DNA of 64,000 nucleotides from NCBI GenBank assembly GCA_024398135.1, contig CP073750.1, positions 62,001 through 126,000 of the forward strand, read 5' to 3'. The DNA comes from a bacterium SCSIO 12643. GTDB lineage: Bacteria; Bacteroidota; Bacteroidia; Flavobacteriales_G; Salibacteraceae. Numbering within the stretch: position 1 is the first letter of the stretch; the number at the start of each line of letters is the position of its first letter. The notes under the pieces were generated by a model. The model had not been told where the DNA came from and did no database searches. It saw only the letters and a program-made list of their open reading frames with translations. Position numbers and translations under genes: made by a program. Positions 55,594-64,000 of the stretch are shown here, piece after piece.

Positions 55594-58500
55594 TTAGTTA
55601 ATGATCAGTTTTTCATAAGTTACATTTCCTTCACTCTTCAGTGCTATCGTGTAAACTCCAGTACTTAATCTATTTGATTCATTAAACTGAGTTGAAATGA
55701 TCTCATCTGCTTCTACATAACCATCAAAAATCACATCTACCATATTTCCTGCAAAGTCATATAGTACAATGGTCATTTGAGAAGAATTTCTTACTGAGAA
55801 CTCTACTGTAAACTCACCGTTTGATGGATTAGGATATACACTTTTTGAAATTAGATTTACTTCAGCCTTGTTTACGCCACTGCTTAAAGTAATTCCATCT
55901 TCATCACCTCCATTTTCACTGTTATTTCCATATCCTCGGTAATCGTTTCTATTGCAAACTCCTCCTCCAGTTTTCAGAGTTACACCTCCAGAAGCGGTAC
56001 AGCCATTCGCATCAGTAACGGTTACCACATATGTTCCGGTACACAATCCACTGATGTCATCTGTGTTATCACCATTGCTCCAGGAATACGTATAAGGTCC
56101 TGTTCCACCTTGCATGTAATTGAAATTAATATATCCATTACATGAATACTGTGTGGTAGGATTGTAAGCAGTAAACTGACCTTTCATTTTTGAAGGCTCC
56201 GCAACATTAATAGAAACTACTTTAGAACAACCTGCTGCATCTGTTACAGTCACATCATAATCTCCGGCACATACACCTTGAACATCCTGAGTTGTTGCTC
56301 CATTTGACCAATTGTAAGTATAAGGTGCTGTTCCTCCATTTACTGTTAAATCAATTGCTCCATCACATAATGGATTCTCATCACAATCGAACTTAAAGTT
56401 CCCAACACCACCAGAGTTTTTATAATAGATCACTAATTTCTTCACTCCTGATGCATTCATTGTAATGGTTTGAATAGATCCATCTCCCATATTCACGATG
56501 TTCTTAGATACAATTAAGTTATTATTCGCATCATAAGCTTTTGCTGTTCCGTAAGGTCCTCCATCTTTATCGATAAAGTCAAATGAAATCACCTTTCTTG
56601 TTTTCACAAATGTGAAAGTAATCTTACCTCCGTATCTTGTATCATCAGGTAGGTCATAAAGTCCATCATTATTATTATCTACATTGTTTTCCGGGAAGAT
56701 TAGGATGTTTCCTTGATCCACCTCTAAATCAGAATCTCTGGTATTTGACAAGTCAGTATCAAAAATGATCAAATCATGTAATGAACCTGAGTTCGCTACA
56801 CTTGTTAATGTAAATCCAAGTGAATTATAATTTCCTGACATTACTTCTCCGTTACTGTAGTTCGATAAATCAAACTCACAACTTGTATTTGCTGAGTTAC
56901 AGCTGTTATCCGTAACCACATTTGAAACCTGAATTGCATTTGGCTCAGTAATTACAACTTGTTTATACGCTTTACATCCATTTACATCGGTTACCGTCAC
57001 AGTATATGTCCCTGCATCTAAACTATTCACTGTAGCTCCTGATCTTCCATGTGACCAGCTATACGTAAACGGTCCAACTCCACTAGTCGCAGATACCGTT
57101 GCACTACCATCAGAAGAACCATTACATGTTACATCACTTTGAGCCACAATGCTTGCTGTAATACCATTGTTAATTGTAATCGTAATCCAGTTAGATTCTC
57201 CAATATATCTTGAACAATTGCTTCTTCTTGCACATCTTCTGAATTTAGTTGTTTGTGAAACCACTCCTGGATCATATGACGGTCCATTTGCACCTGGTAT
57301 CACGGTCTGAGCCTGGCCAGGTATTTTTTTCAACCAAACATATTCTAAGGTTCCTACACCACCTGACGGTAAACTTACACTTGTAATTGGTGCCGGATCG
57401 AAACTTCCACAGTTAGACTGTGCTCCTGTGATCACACCTGCACTCGTTACATTACAACACATTGTTGCAATTGAACCACTTTCAGTTGCTGTACATCCAT
57501 TCGCATCTGTTACCGTTACACTGTATGTTCCAGGTGACAAGTTATTTACAGTAGCAGTAGTTTCGCCATTACTCCAGCTATAAGTATACGGAGCAGTACC
57601 AGAGGTTATTACTACATTAGCTGATCCATCATTTAAGTTTGCAGCACAAGTCCCCTGAGTCGTCTGAACTGTTACAGTTACACCACCATGAACAGTCATT
57701 GTAATCCAATTGGTTTCTCCAACATACGTAGTACAGTTACTTCTTCTCGCACATCTTCTATACTTAGTTGTTTGTGTAATCATTCCCGGATCATAAGTCG
57801 GTCCATTTGCACCTGGTATCACAGTATATGATTGACCTGGTAATTTCTTTAACCAGATATACTCTATTGTTCCCACACCACCTGCTGGTAAACTTACACT
57901 TGTAATTGGTGCCGGGTCAAAACTTCCACAGTTTGATTGTGCTCCTGTAATTGCTCCTGCGCTGGTTACATTACAACACATTGTCGCTATAGTGTTACTA
58001 CCTGTTGCTGTACATCCATTGGCATCCGTTACTGTTACTGAATATGTTCCTGGTACCAGACTATTAATTGTTGATCCTGTTGAACCGTTTGACCATGCAT
58101 ATGTAAATGGTGCTGTTCCTCCTGATACAACTGTATTCATACTTCCGTTGGCTAAGTTACCTCCACAAGTCGCTTGTGTGGCCTGAACTGTCGCACTTAA
58201 TGCAGTCGGCTCTGTAATCGTTACTTGTGTACTTCCAGTACATCCATTTACATCTGTTACAGTCACTGAATATGTTCCTGCTGATAAATTACTCAATGTA
58301 GCTGTAGTACCACCATTACTCCAAGCATATGTAAATGGAGCACTTCCTGTTGCATTTACTGTAGCATTTCCATTTGAAGCTCCGTTACACATTACATTAC
58401 TATAAGAAACAATATTTGCGGTTACACCACCATGAACAGTCATTGTAATCCAATTGGTTTCTCCAACATACGTAGTACAGTTGCTTCTTCTCGCACATCT

Positions 58501-61500
58501 TCTATACTTAGTTGTTTGTGTAATCACTCCCGGATCATAAGTCGGTCCATTTGCACCTGGTATCACAGTATATGATTGACCTGGTAATTTCTTTAACCAG
58601 ATATACTCTATTGTTCCCACACCACCTGCGGGTAAGCTTACACTTGTAATTGGTGCCGGATCAAAACTTCCACAGTTAGACTGTGCTCCGGTAATTGCTC
58701 CTGCACTGGTTACATTACAACACATTGTCGCAATGGTGTTACTTCCTGTCGCAGTACATCCGTTCGCATCCGTTACTGTTACACTGTACGTTCCAGGTAC
58801 CAGACTATTAATGGTTGATCCTGTTGATCCGTTTGACCATGCATAGGTAAATGGTGCTGTTCCACCGGTTACTAATGTGTTCATGCTTCCATTTGCCAAG
58901 TTACCGCCACAAGTTGCTTGGGTAGCTTGAACTGTTGCACTTAATACATTCGGTTCAGTAATCGTTACTGAACTTGTACTCGTTGCACCATTAGCATCAG
59001 TTACTGTTACACTGTATGTTCCTGCAGCCAATCCGTTGATAGTTGAAGTTGAAGCTCCATTTGACCATGCGTATGAGTAAGGAGTTACTGCTCCGCTTGC
59101 ACTTGCTGTTGCTGATCCATTAGCATTTCCGTTACAATCTACATTGTTGTTTACTACTGCTGTAGAAGTCAATGCGGTTGGTTCTGTTACCGTTGATGTC
59201 GCTACTGCGGTACATCCATTTGCATCAGTTACAGTCACTGTATATGTTCCTGCTGTTAGACCTGAGATTGTTGCAGTCGTTGCTCCAGTGTTCCATGCAT
59301 AAGTATATGCTGGGGTTCCTCCGTTTGCTGATGCTGCTACTTCTCCGTTAGAGCCTCCGTTGATTAATACGTTTGCGTTTACCACGCTTGATGCGGTTAA
59401 TGCTGTCGGCTCAGTGATTGTTACTGAACTTGTGCTTGTTGCTCCGTTCGCATCTGTTACAGTTACACTGTATGTTCCTGCTGATAGTCCGTTAATTGTA
59501 GCCGTTGAAGCTCCGTTTGACCATGCGTAAGTATAAGGAGTTACTGCGCCACTTGCTGATGCTGTTGCTGATCCGTTCGCATTACCATTACAATCTACAT
59601 TGTTGTTTACTACTGCTGTAGAAGTCAATGCACTTGGCTCTGTTACTGTTGAACTCGCTACTGCGGTACATCCATTTGCATCTGTTACAGTCACTGTATA
59701 TGTTCCTGCTGTTAGACCTGAGATTGTTGAAGTTGTTGCTCCGGTTGACCATGCATAAGTGTATGCTGGTGTTCCTCCATTGGCACTTGCTGCTACTTCT
59801 CCGTTTGATCCTCCGTTGATCAACACATTCGCATTTACTACGCTTGATGCGGTTAATGCTGTTGGCTCGGTAATCGTTACTGAGTTTGTTGATGTTGCTC
59901 CGTTAGCATCTGTTACAGTTACTGTATATGTTCCTGCTGCCAGGTTTGTAATCGTAGCTGTTGTTGCCCCATTTGACCATGCATAGGTGTATGGAGTTAC
60001 TGCTCCGCTTGCTGATGCTGTTGCTGAACCATTTGCATTACCATTACAATCTACATTGTTGTTTACTACTGCTGTAGAAGTCAATGCACTTGGCTCTGTT
60101 ACTGTTGATGTTGCTACTGCGGTACATCCATTTGCATCGGTTACTGTTACTGTATATGTTCCTGCTATTAGGTTTGTGATCGTAGCTGTTGTTGCTCCGG
60201 TTGACCATGCATAAGAGTATGCTGGGGTTCCTCCGTTTGCACTTGCTGCTACTTCACCGTTTGAGCCTCCATTGATTAACACGTTTGCATTTACAGTTGA
60301 TGCTGCTACTAGTACGGTTGGCTCTGTGATCGTTACTGAACTTGTACTTGTTGCTCCGTTCGCATCTGTTACAGTCACTGTGTATGTGCCAGCAGCTAAT
60401 CCATTGATTGTTGAAGTCGAAGCTCCATTTGACCATGCATATGAGTAAGGAGTTACTGCTCCGCTTGCTGATGCTGTTGCTGATCCGTTCGCATTTCCGT
60501 TACAATCTACATTGTTATTTACTACTGCTGTAGAAGTCAATGCCGTTGGCTCTGTTACTGTTGAACTCGCTACTACGGTACATCCATTTGCATCGGTTAC
60601 TGTTACTGTATATGTTCCTGCTGTCAAGTTAGAGATTGTTGAAGTTGTCGCTCCGGTTGACCATGCATAAGTGTATGCTGGTGTTCCTCCATTGGCACTT
60701 GCTGCTACTTCTCCGTTTGATCCTCCGTTGATCAACACATTCGCATTTACTACGCTTGATGCGGTTAATGCTGTCGGCTCGGTAATCGTTACTGAGTTTG
60801 TTGATGTTGCTCCGTTAGCATCTGTTACAGTTACACTGTATGTTCCTGCAGATAGTCCGTTAATCGTTGATGTTGTTGATCCGTTTGACCATGCATATGA
60901 GTAAGGAGTTACTGCGCCACTTGCTGATGCTGTTGCTGAACCATTTGCATTACCGTTACAATCTACATTGTTGTTTACTACTGCTGTAGAAGTCAATGCG
61001 GTTGGCTCTGTTACTGTTGATGTCGCTACTGCGGTACATCCATTTGCATCGGTTACTGTTACTGTATATGTTCCTGCTGTCAAGTTAGAGATTGTTGAAG
61101 TCGTTGCTCCGGTGTTCCATGCATATGTGTATGCTGGGGTTCCGCCATTTGCACTTGCTGCTACTTCTCCATTTGATCCTCCGTTGATTAACACATTCGC
61201 ATTTACTACGCTTGATGCGGTTAATGCTGTTGGCTCTGTGATCGTTACTGAGTTTGTACTTGTCGCTCCGTTCGCATCTGTTACAGTTACACTGTATGTT
61301 CCTGCTGCAAGGTTTGTGATTGTAGCTGTTGTTGAGCCGTTTGACCATGCATATGTATAAGGAGTTACTGCTCCGCTTGCACTTACTGTTGCTGATCCGT
61401 TCGCATTTCCGTTACAATCTACATTGTTGTTTACTACTGCACTTGATGTCAATGCGGTTGGCTCTGTTACTGTTGATGTTGATACCGCAGTACATCCATT

Positions 61501-64000
61501 TGCATCAGTTACAGTCACTGTATAGGTTCCAGCTGTCAAGTTAGAGATTGTTGAAGTTGTTGCTCCGGTTGACCATGCATATGTGTATGCTGGGGTTCCT
61601 CCATTTGCACTTGCTGCTACTTCACCGTTTGAGCCTCCGTTGATTAACACATTCGCATTTACTACACTTGATGCGGTTAAGGCTGTTGGCTCTGTGATCG
61701 TTACTTGAGCTGTTGCATCACATCCTTTGCTATCTGTTGCAGTTACAGTATAAGTTCCTGCTGTTAGATTTGTGATCGTAGCTGTTGTTGCCCCATTTGA
61801 CCATGCATAGGTAAATGGTGCAGTTCCGCCTGTTGCACCTGCAGTTGCTGATCCAGTACTGGTTCCATGACAACTTGCATTAGTTGATGATACAATTGAA
61901 GCGGTTACTGTTGGATTTACTTCAATCGCTATCACATTAGATTCTCCTGCATAGAATGTACAAGTACTTGTTCTTGCACATCTGATGAAATATGTTGTTT
62001 GAGTCAATACGCCCGGATCGTATGTGGCACTTGTTGATCCTGGGATCATTGTCCAATGTGGATTTCCTACAGTGTTTGGTACGTTCACTAAACTTTGTAA
62101 CCAGATATACTCTATTACGCCTACTCCACCTGATGGTAAGCTTACACTTGTAATCGGTGCCGGATCAAAACTTCCACAGTTAGACTGTGCTCCGGTAATT
62201 GCTCCTGCACTGGTTACATTACAACACATTGTTGCGATGGTATTACTTCCTGTCGCTGTACATCCATTCGCATCCGTTACTGTTACTGAATACGTTCCAG
62301 GTACCAGACTATTAATTGTTGATCCTGTTGAGCCGTTTGACCATGCATAGGTAAATGGTGCTGTTCCACCTGTTACTAATGTGTTCATGCTTCCATTTGC
62401 CAAGTTACCGACACAAGTTGCTTGGGTAGCTTGAACTGTTGCACTTAATACATTCGGCTCAGTGATTGTTACTGAACTTGTACTCGTTGCTCCGTTCGCA
62501 TCTGTTACAGTTACACTGTATGTTCCTGCAGCTAATCCATTGATTGTTGAAGTTGAAGCTCCATTTGACCATGCATATGAGTAAGGAGTTACTGCTCCGC
62601 TTGCTGATGCTGTTGCTGATCCGTTCGCATTTCCGTTACAATCTACATTGTTATTTACTACTGTTGTAGAAGTCAATGCCGTTGGCTCTGTTACTGTTGA
62701 TGTCGCTACTGCGGTACATCCATTTGCATCTGTTACAGTCACTGTATATGTTCCTACTGTTAGACCTGAGATCGTAGCTGTTGTTGATCCGGTATTCCAT
62801 GCATAAGAGTATGCTGGGGTTCCTCCGTTTGCTAATGCTGCTACTTCTCCGTTTGAGCCTCCGTTAATTAACACATTAGCATTTACTACGCTTGATACAG
62901 TTAAGGCTGTCGGCTCCGTAATCGTTACTGAACTTGTACTTGTTGCTCCGTTGGCATCTGATACAGTCACTGTGTATGTTCCTGCTGCAAGGTTTGTGAT
63001 TGTAGATGTTGTTGATCCGTTTGACCATGCAAATATATAAGGTGTTACTGCTCCGTTAGCTGATGCTGTTGCAGATCCATTTGCATTACCGTTACAATCT
63101 ACATTGTTGTTCACTACTGCACTTGAGGTCAATGCACTTGGCTCAGTTACTGTTGAAGTTGCTACTGCTGTACATCCGTTGGCATCAGTTACTGTCACAG
63201 TATATGTTCCAGCAGTAAGGTTTGAAATCGTTGAAGTTGTCGCTCCGGTTGACCATGCATAAGTATATGATGGTGTTCCTCCGTTTGCTGACGCTGCTAC
63301 TTCTCCGGTTGACCCTCCGTTGATTAACACGTTTGAATTTACTACACTTGATGCTGTTAAGGCTGTCGGCTCAGTGATCGTTACTTGAGCTGTTGCATCA
63401 CATCCTTTGCTATCTGTTGCAGTTACAGTATATGTTCCTGCTGCTAGATTAGTAATTGTAGCTGTTGAAGCTCCATTTGACCATGCATATGTAAATGGTG
63501 CGGTTCCTCCTGTTGCACTTGCTGTTGCAGAACCAGTACTGGTTCCATGACAACTTGCATTTGTTGATGATACAATTGAAGCAGTTACTGTTGGATTTAC
63601 TTCAATAGTAATCACATTTGATTCACCTGCATAGAATGTACAAGTACTTGTTCTTGCACATCTAATGAAATATGTTGTTTGAGTCAATACTCCCGGATCA
63701 TATGTTGCGCTTGTTGACCCTGGTATCATTGTCCAGTGTGGGTTACCAACTGTGTTTGGTACATTTACATGACTTTGTAACCAGATGTACTCTATTGTTC
63801 CTACTCCTCCTGATGGTAAACTTACACTTGTAATCGGTGCTGGATCAAAACTTCCACAGTTAGACTGTGCTCCGGTAATTGCTCCTGCACTGGTTACATT
63901 ACAACACATCGTTGCAATTGTATTACTTCCTGTTGCTGTACATCCGTTCGCATCTGTTACTGTTACTGAATAAGTTCCTGGTACCAAGCTATTGATTATT
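55594..64000 (-). CDS. Giant SprB-repeat adhesin with T9SS sorting domain (N-terminus outside the window)
   Basis: At least ~2,800 residues, continuing past the window edge, so the true start and signal peptide are not seen. It is built of ~76-residue SprB repeats (consensus around AWSNGxxTxxIxxLxxGTYxVTVTDANGC) and five separate modules beginning CCNVTSAG and containing CGSFDPAPITS (near 57.45, 57.97, 58.72, 62.22 and 63.90 kb). A calcium-type Asp/Asn-rich module follows near 56.4-56.9 kb, then two more SprB repeats and a type A T9SS sorting domain (SVYPNPSNGEF...EKLIIN). SprB is the mobile gliding adhesin of flavobacteria; this relative is a surface adhesin probably displayed by T9SS. The gliding partners are not in this window. 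Confidence 0.9.
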   Translation of the reverse strand, partial: IINSLVPGTYSVTVTDANGCTATGSNTIATMCCNVTSAGAITGAQSNCGSFDPAPITSVSLPSGGVGTIEYIWLQSHVNVPNTVGNPHWTMIPGSTSATYDPGVLTQTTYFIRCARTSTCTFYAGESNVITIEVNPTVTASIVSSTNASCHGTSTGSATASATGGTAPFTYAWSNGASTATITNLAAGTYTVTATDSKGCDATAQVTITEPTALTASSVVNSNVLINGGSTGEVAASANGGTPSYTYAWSTGATTSTISNLTAGTYTVTVTDANGCTAVATSTVTEPSALTSSAVVNNNVDCNGNANGSATASANGAVTPYIFAWSNGSTTSTITNLAAGTYTVTVSDANGATSTSSVTITEPTALTVSSVVNANVLINGGSNGEVAALANGGTPAYSYAWNTGSTTATISGLTVGTYTVTVTDANGCTAVATSTVTEPTALTSTTVVNNNVDCNGNANGSATASASGAVTPYSYAWSNGASTSTINGLAAGTYSVTVTDANGATSTSSVTITEPNVLSATVQATQATCVGNLANGSMNTLVTGGTAPFTYAWSNGSTGSTINSLVPGTYSVTVTDANGCTATGSNTIATMCCNVTSAGAITGAQSNCGSFDPAPITSVSLPSGGVGVIEYIWLQSLVNVPNTVGNPHWTMIPGSTSATYDPGVLTQTTYFIRCARTSTCTFYAGESNVIAIEVNPTVTASIVSSTNASCHGTSTGSATAGATGGTAPFTYAWSNGATTATITNLTAGTYTVTATDSKGCDATAQVTITEPTALTASSVVNANVLINGGSNGEVAASANGGTPAYTYAWSTGATTSTISNLTAGTYTVTVTDANGCTAVSTSTVTEPTALTSSAVVNNNVDCNGNANGSATVSASGAVTPYTYAWSNGSTTATITNLAAGTYSVTVTDANGATSTNSVTITEPTALTASSVVNANVLINGGSNGEVAASANGGTPAYTYAWNTGATTSTISNLTAGTYTVTVTDANGCTAVATSTVTEPTALTSTAVVNNNVDCNGNANGSATASASGAVTPYSYAWSNGSTTSTINGLSAGTYSVTVTDANGATSTNSVTITEPTALTASSVVNANVLINGGSNGEVAASANGGTPAYTYAWSTGATTSTISNLTAGTYTVTVTDANGCTVVASSTVTEPTALTSTAVVNNNVDCNGNANGSATASASGAVTPYSYAWSNGASTSTINGLAAGTYTVTVTDANGATSTSSVTITEPTVLVAASTVNANVLINGGSNGEVAASANGGTPAYSYAWSTGATTATITNLIAGTYTVTVTDANGCTAVATSTVTEPSALTSTAVVNNNVDCNGNANGSATASASGAVTPYTYAWSNGATTATITNLAAGTYTVTVTDANGATSTNSVTITEPTALTASSVVNANVLINGGSNGEVAASANGGTPAYTYAWSTGATTSTISGLTAGTYTVTVTDANGCTAVASSTVTEPSALTSTAVVNNNVDCNGNANGSATASASGAVTPYTYAWSNGASTATINGLSAGTYSVTVTDANGATSTSSVTITEPTALTASSVVNANVLINGGSNGEVAASANGGTPAYTYAWNTGATTATISGLTAGTYTVTVTDANGCTAVATSTVTEPTALTSTAVVNNNVDCNGNANGSATASASGAVTPYSYAWSNGASTSTINGLAAGTYSVTVTDANGATSTSSVTITEPNVLSATVQATQATCGGNLANGSMNTLVTGGTAPFTYAWSNGSTGSTINSLVPGTYSVTVTDANGCTATGSNTIATMCCNVTSAGAITGAQSNCGSFDPAPITSVSLPAGGVGTIEYIWLKKLPGQSYTVIPGANGPTYDPGVITQTTKYRRCARRSNCTTYVGETNWITMTVHGGVTANIVSYSNVMCNGASNGNATVNATGSAPFTYAWSNGGTTATLSNLSAGTYSVTVTDVNGCTGSTQVTITEPTALSATVQATQATCGGNLANGSMNTVVSGGTAPFTYAWSNGSTGSTINSLVPGTYSVTVTDANGCTATGSNTIATMCCNVTSAGAITGAQSNCGSFDPAPITSVSLPAGGVGTIEYIWLKKLPGQSYTVIPGANGPTYDPGMITQTTKYRRCARRSNCTTYVGETNWITMTVHGGVTVTVQTTQGTCAANLNDGSANVVITSGTAPYTYSWSNGETTATVNNLSPGTYSVTVTDANGCTATESGSIATMCCNVTSAGVITGAQSNCGSFDPAPITSVSLPSGGVGTLEYVWLKKIPGQAQTVIPGANGPSYDPGVVSQTTKFRRCARRSNCSRYIGESNWITITINNGITASIVAQSDVTCNGSSDGSATVSATSGVGPFTYSWSHGRSGATVNSLDAGTYTVTVTDVNGCKAYKQVVITEPNAIQVSNVVTDNSCNSANTSCEFDLSNYSNGEVMSGNYNSLGFTLTSVANSGSLHDLIIFDTDLSNTRDSDLEVDQGNILIFPENNVDNNNDGLYDLPDDTRYGGKITFTFVKTRKVISFDFIDKDGGPYGTAKAYDANNNLIVSKNIVNMGDGSIQTITMNASGVKKLVIYYKNSGGVGNFKFDCDENPLCDGAIDLTVNGGTAPYTYNWSNGATTQDVQGVCAGDYDVTVTDAAGCSKVVSINVAEPSKMKGQFTAYNPTTQYSCNGYINFNYMQGGTGPYTYSWSNGDNTDDISGLCTGTYVVTVTDANGCTASGGVTLKTGGGVCNRNDYRGYGNNSENGGDEDGITLSSGVNKAEVNLISKSVYPNPSNGEFTVEFSVRNSSQMTIVLYDFAGNMVDVIFDGYVEADEIISTQFNESNRLSTGVYTIALKSEGNVTYEKLIIN
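56360..56900 (-). other. Asp/Asn-rich calcium-type module inside the adhesin
   Basis: A non-SprB segment with SDLEVDQGNILIFPENN, then NVDNNNDGLYDLPDDTRYGG, FDFIDKDGG and the ending GGVGNFKFDC. I recognise this type of module from other large marine bacterial surface proteins. The closely spaced Asp and Asn residues suggest calcium binding; the role is inferred. Confidence 0.6.
58960..61680 (-). repeat. 456-bp tandem superrepeats in the adhesin, main block
   Basis: The landmark GCGGTACATCC (plus strand, with minor changes) occurs at 59207, 59663, 60119, 60575, 61031 and 61487: six copies exactly 456 bp (152 codons) apart. Each unit holds two different 76-residue halves (type A and type B) in strict alternation. 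No indels are seen between units, which indicates homogenisation. Confidence 0.85.
60780..64000 (-). repeat. 1,680-bp higher-order duplication in the adhesin
   Basis: Positions 62460-64000 repeat 60780-62320 at a constant offset of 1,680 bp. For example, the stretches at 61681 and 63361, at 61021 and 62701, and at 62281 and 63961 match nearly base for base. Each copy includes one CCNVTSAG module and several SprB repeats, and the second copy is cut by the window end. Confidence 0.8.

Follow-up and report, generated by a model that had tools for sequence, protein, structure and literature searches.

Predicted disulfides between neighbouring SprB repeats, and an alternating repeat protein that would lack half of them

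Tandem SprB repeats are very probably chained by disulfides that run from the early Cys of one repeat to the late Cys of the next. In the giant surface protein of a Bacteroidota bacterium described here (4,476 codons), such bonds would staple the A-to-B junctions of its alternating arrays and leave the B-to-A junctions free. Judged from the cysteine patterns, bonds between neighbours are most likely the general rule for SprB repeats, and this protein is the case in which half of them are missing. A sequence-only reading of the window (the whole 64,000-nucleotide stretch that was analysed) had set these repeats apart from ordinary SprB repeats, each supposedly closed within its own domain; that contrast was not supported, as the two Cys of an ordinary repeat do not co-vary. 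The same reading had proposed that disulfides link adjacent domains. This part is very probably right, and the domains would indeed be held as pairs, but the partner was wrongly assigned, the predicted bond joining the early Cys of an A repeat to the late Cys of the next B repeat. SprB-repeat proteins include adhesins that carry load during gliding. We found no explanation in the open-licence literature of how long, thin SprB-type fibers resist force.

Alternating one-cysteine repeats and the protein that carries them

The repeats lie in a minus-strand ORF of 4,476 codons, as read in the whole genome; the part within the window extends from position 55594 to beyond 64000, and the 5' end is about 5 kb outside. 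The ORF encodes an N-terminal Ig-like domain and a propeller-like region, both named by inspection of the sequence, followed by SprB repeats interspersed with CC-type domains and a T9SS sorting domain. All repeats of the protein scored as PF13573, with the modelled A-B-A-B segment reaching 105.6 bits against a gathering cut-off of 28, and PF13573-type repeats were found genome-wide. The C terminus (55597 to 55839, minus strand) is a type A sorting domain by its profile matches, TIGR04183 (50.5 bits, 1.5e-13) and PF18962 (1.7e-14), and thus the protein carries the C-terminal Por_Secre_tail domain of T9SS type A cargo. Among the genome's matches to the type B sorting domain, TIGR04131, other SprB-repeat ORFs were present and the 4,476-codon protein was absent; judged by its sorting domain, it is not SprB itself. 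The type B domain was seen on four further SprB-repeat proteins, of 3,716, 3,306, 2,405, and 2,385 codons. Altogether, about ten large SprB-repeat proteins besides the 4,476-codon one are encoded in the genome (G000), with ORFs of 1,491 to 3,716 codons (loci L032-L039, at 1.16, 1.48-1.53, 1.81, 2.16, and 3.68 Mb of C1). The genome also encodes one DsbA-family protein, and a search of the genome for VKOR found none.

There were 28 alternating repeats of 76 residues in strict B-A order, 14 of each type, with 8 B and 8 A inside the window. The sequence-only reading had described A repeats with the early Cys alone, B repeats with the late Cys alone, and a fixed B-A order, and this description held without exception across all 28. 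Every A repeat has the motif NVDCNG and no late Cys, with DANGAT in 13 and DANSAT in one; every B repeat has NVLINGG and DANGCT, and so the late Cys alone. The repeats form three arrays of 6, 2, and 6 B-A pairs in reading order. The last two are inside the window on the minus strand, the 2-pair array at 62455 to 63366 and a 6-pair array at 58951 to 61686; the remaining array of 6 pairs is past the window end. The interval 58960 to 63350, earlier taken as alternating throughout, does contain these 2 and 6 pairs, but it is not one array, and a non-alternating block with two-Cys repeats separates them.

Identity is 91% among A repeats, 92% among B repeats, and 60% between A and B. The TRF period in the arrays is 456, and the alternation within this protein is largely one duplicated 456-bp unit, so that the 14 copies do not count as independent of one another. 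An orthologue from the same genus (L219) shares this architecture but has a single B-A pair, 64% identical over the pair, and we observed the same Cys states in it. Since the orthologue has only the one pair, the 14-fold amplification is attributed, by this sequence comparison, to the present species, and the orthologue's Cys states lend the alternation pattern independent support.

CC-type domains (MCCNVTSAG...QSNC...RCAR..SNC) occur between two-Cys repeats, in the window at 58414 to 58728, 61900 to 62232, and 63580 to 63912. Each has five Cys, giving seven between stapled arrays when the flanking early and late Cys are counted, an odd number that leaves one partner unexplained. The N-terminal copy of the domain has two Cys only.

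Cysteines kept or lost together across junctions

The co-loss analysis used a repeat profile of 72 columns, in which the early Cys is column 11 and the late Cys is column 61. The main set held 2,101 SprB repeats from 159 ORFs, drawn from the window's own genome, a phylum sample, and 80 GTDB loci. The early Cys of a repeat and the late Cys of the following repeat agreed at 1,552 of 1,565 junctions, both being present at 1,518 and both absent at 34. The 13 discordant junctions comprised 10 with the late Cys only and 3 with the early Cys only (odds ratio of about 1,700; p of 2e-57, a nominal value). Outside the own genome the agreement persisted (1,364 both, 19 neither, 10 late only, 1 early only; nominal p of 1e-34). 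These p values are nominal because repeats within a protein are related by duplication, and the weight rests on separate proteins with both-absent junctions, of which there were 11 in the main set and 19 when the hold-out was included. Some loci were chosen by patterns containing the two Cys, which inflates the share of intact repeats; such selection alone cannot create agreement across a junction. Within a single repeat of the main set there was no association between the two Cys, with 71 repeats retaining only the late Cys, 82 only the early Cys, and none lacking both.

The hold-out consisted of 35 previously unused regions from relatives of the window genome, with 49 SprB-repeat ORFs. Here too, partner Cys were kept or lost together across junctions: 480 had both, 7 neither, and 2 the early Cys only, with no junction having the late Cys only (p of 3e-14). 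Both discordant cases were non-SprB domains. A same-repeat association was weak in this set (nominal p of 0.02), and it traced to four repeats devoid of both Cys, each of them isolated or at an array edge. Ranked by normalised mutual information, the 5,184 inter-domain column pairs were led by column 11 of one repeat with column 61 of the following one, at 0.70; the runner-up scored 0.33. The Cys pair does not come first under APC correction, because both columns are nearly invariant, but it does when the score is normalised by entropy.

The exceptions followed a pattern of their own. At junctions where the early Cys is absent and the late Cys present, a Cys was found in the linker in 9 of 10, compared with 65 of 1,518 ordinary junctions (p of 9e-12); in the examples inspected, the 65 were strand-G Cys, not true linker Cys. 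The early-site codon of the tenth junction was unread. Of the three reverse cases, one had a Cys in the linker, one had a second Cys in the same loop, and the third was a misassigned non-SprB domain. Array ends deviated as well: compared with array-interior repeats, first repeats more often lacked the late Cys (p of 1e-14) and last repeats the early Cys (p of 8e-10). Many array ends nonetheless retain a Cys; the late Cys was present in 167 of 202 first repeats, 60 of which have a Cys close upstream.

Unstapled junctions, those with both Cys absent, occurred in 19 proteins, and partial stapling therefore recurs. In some proteins the loss is periodic, at every third junction in L167 (genome G025) and at every second in L124 (Acidiluteibacter ferrifornacis).

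Domain topology, predicted staples, and rival pairings

Covariation within the repeat gave a consistent layout. Strand A runs parallel to strand G (column pairs 9-69 and 11-72), the F-G turn falls near column 59, and pairs 15-47 and 25-61 mark opposite poles. This topology puts the early Cys at the predicted exit end of the domain and the late Cys at its entry end. Axial distances estimated from it, at 3.3 Å per residue and with a straight, extended linker assumed, are about 12 Å from the early Cys to the late Cys of the next repeat, itself longer than a disulfide, and about 37 Å between the two sites of one domain. AlphaFold2 modelled the A-B-A-B segment at 59635 to 60546 (minus strand) as four 6-stranded beta-sandwiches (pLDDT of 97.5, pTM of 0.76), with strands consistent with the covariation layout and matching those of a normal four-repeat stretch (pLDDT of 97.1, pTM of 0.74). 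Comparison of the two pTM values, alternating against fully stapled, revealed no difference that would indicate a hinge at the unstapled junction. A second Cys pair, at columns 15 and 47, is present in about 13% of repeats and shows the strongest covariation within the domain; its two Cys probably bond to each other at the exit pole. A third, rarer pair occupies columns 52 and 66.

Under the co-loss rule, the early Cys of a repeat, in the A-B turn at the exit pole, would bond the late Cys in the F-G turn at the entry pole of the next repeat, with a staple at every junction of a normal array. Because B repeats lack the early Cys and A repeats the late Cys, A-to-B junctions would be stapled, by Cys 126 residues apart, and B-to-A junctions free; the fiber would then be a series of A-B pairs, each clamped covalently. 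Staples that the rule predicts for the two alternating arrays and their borders, on the minus strand of the window, are given here in reading order. Upstream of and within the 2-pair array, these would join the early Cys of a two-Cys repeat (63550 to 63552) to a B late Cys (63172 to 63174), spanning 63172 to 63552, and an A early Cys (63094 to 63096) to the next B late Cys (62716 to 62718), spanning 62716 to 63096. The early Cys of the array's last A repeat (62638 to 62640) would reach the late Cys of the two-Cys repeat after it (62260 to 62262; span, 62260 to 62640). The 6-pair array would be entered from the early Cys of a two-Cys repeat (61870 to 61872) to a B late Cys (61492 to 61494; span, 61492 to 61872). 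Inside it, five A-to-B staples are predicted, from 61414-61416 to 61036-61038 (61036 to 61416), 60958-60960 to 60580-60582 (60580 to 60960), 60502-60504 to 60124-60126 (60124 to 60504), 60046-60048 to 59668-59670 (59668 to 60048), and 59590-59592 to 59212-59214 (59212 to 59592). The last A early Cys (59134 to 59136) would bond the late Cys of the following two-Cys repeat (58756 to 58758; span, 58756 to 59136).

The pairing put forward in the sequence-only reading differs: B would bond through its late Cys to the early Cys of the A repeat after it, making B-A the clamped pair. Both Cys do occur at every B-A junction here, and their short separation of 26 residues, as that reading counted it, is correct. 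The spacing is not special, since late and next early Cys are 25 to 27 residues apart in 1,391 of 1,462 cases (95%) across SprB arrays generally. Loss statistics, compensating linker Cys, array-end behavior, and domain topology all point instead to a bond from the early Cys of A to the late Cys of the next B. The association between a late Cys and the next early Cys came mainly from the own genome, was weak outside it (odds ratio of 3, p of 0.055), and was not significant in the hold-out (p of 0.12). The pairing would also strand unpaired Cys at first repeats and at borders between arrays and two-Cys repeats. Moreover, a whole strand G, the linker, and a whole strand A lie between the two Cys, which sit at the far ends of two domains, and the distance between them is estimated from the covariation topology at about 86 Å, spanning two whole domains. 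The pair at 61414 to 61494 (B late Cys at 61492 to 61494, A early Cys at 61414 to 61416; minus strand), for example, is predicted by co-loss and topology not to be bonded, and we regard this pairing as the least probable of all those considered. Hardly more credible is an intra-domain disulfide in ordinary SprB repeats, which would leave A and B here with one free thiol each. Most repeats do hold both Cys, as it would require, but the main-set counts within single repeats oppose it, the sites are at opposite poles and rank 1653 of 2346 in covariation, and the pair that behaves as an intra-domain one is columns 15-47.

Two further explanations concern whether and where bonds form. Cys could have been lost by drift without any disulfide function and the alternation merely copied by duplication, and the recent amplification of one 456-bp unit fits this account. 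It is opposed by the 19 proteins that show reciprocal loss across junctions, by the linker compensation, and by the identical Cys states in an orthologue at 64% identity, and it appears improbable, if slightly less so than the others. Disulfides might instead join neighbouring fibers rather than domains of one chain; the closest solved relative, GhpA, reportedly forms a multi-chain assembly. However, the partner is in every case the adjoining repeat of the same chain, and the substituting linker Cys are same-chain too, which makes inter-fiber bonds very improbable, on a par with closure within the domain.

Staples between neighbours of one chain thus remain the preferred reading, and from it we infer both bond formation and a mechanical role. 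The 26-residue stretch that separates a late Cys from the early Cys after it comprises strand G, the linker, and the next strand A. On geometric grounds, such stretches joined by staples would give a covalent cable, nearly taut, running past the sandwich cores. Two cables are expected where every junction is stapled, and the alternating pattern would keep exactly one unbroken. A single-cable (same-parity) rule was rejected as a general principle, as other proteins drop staples with a period of 3 or irregularly. More broadly, it is conceivable, at slightly below an even chance in our judgment, that SprB-type (and probably GhpA-type) fibers across Bacteroidota are covalent cables whose two paths shield the cores, with this protein having one path and clamped pairs with free joints. 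The co-loss rule is simple, can be read from the sequence in any genome, and would predict which junctions are covalently stapled; the alternating protein would be a natural half-stapled control.

Relation to known systems

Searches of the open-licence PMC literature turned up no earlier account of the inter-domain Cys rule, although one may exist elsewhere. The protein shares its Cys sites and its status as T9SS cargo with the SprB-type gliding adhesins of Bacteroidota (SprB repeat, PF13573), differing from them in lacking both Cys at half of its array junctions. In contrast to SprB of F. johnsoniae, it ends in a type A rather than a type B sorting domain.

The best structural match for the four modelled domains was the grappling-hook protein GhpA of Aureispira (PDB 9FLP, 9FLS, 9FLW, and others). 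Its shafts aligned to the A-B-A-B model with Z of 10.8 to 12.0 and rmsd of 6 to 7.5 Å at only 20 to 26% identity, and the profile match (E of 1.7e-26) is spread over many weak segments. GhpA repeats, of about 81 residues, probably belong to a different family, with no alternation seen, unlike the protein here. All 140 scored GhpA junctions have both Cys; one array starts with an early-only repeat and one ends with a late-only repeat. At the sequence level, GhpA-type repeats share the early/late layout and obey the co-loss rule, although they vary so little that the rule is hardly put to the test.

Disulfides are known to join load-bearing components of the machinery for gliding and secretion in Bacteroidota, in SprF-GldK (PMC12635249). 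There, they connect the track with a carrier in the outer membrane, whereas the links predicted here are between adhesin-type repeats of one chain. A giant tandem Ig-like adhesin of Mobiluncus is covalently cross-linked within single domains (PMC10619420), in contrast to the bonds between domains predicted here. In the extenders of RTX adhesins, calcium in the linkers stiffens the junctions between beta-sandwich repeats (PMC7493085), a role for which a disulfide is predicted in the present protein.
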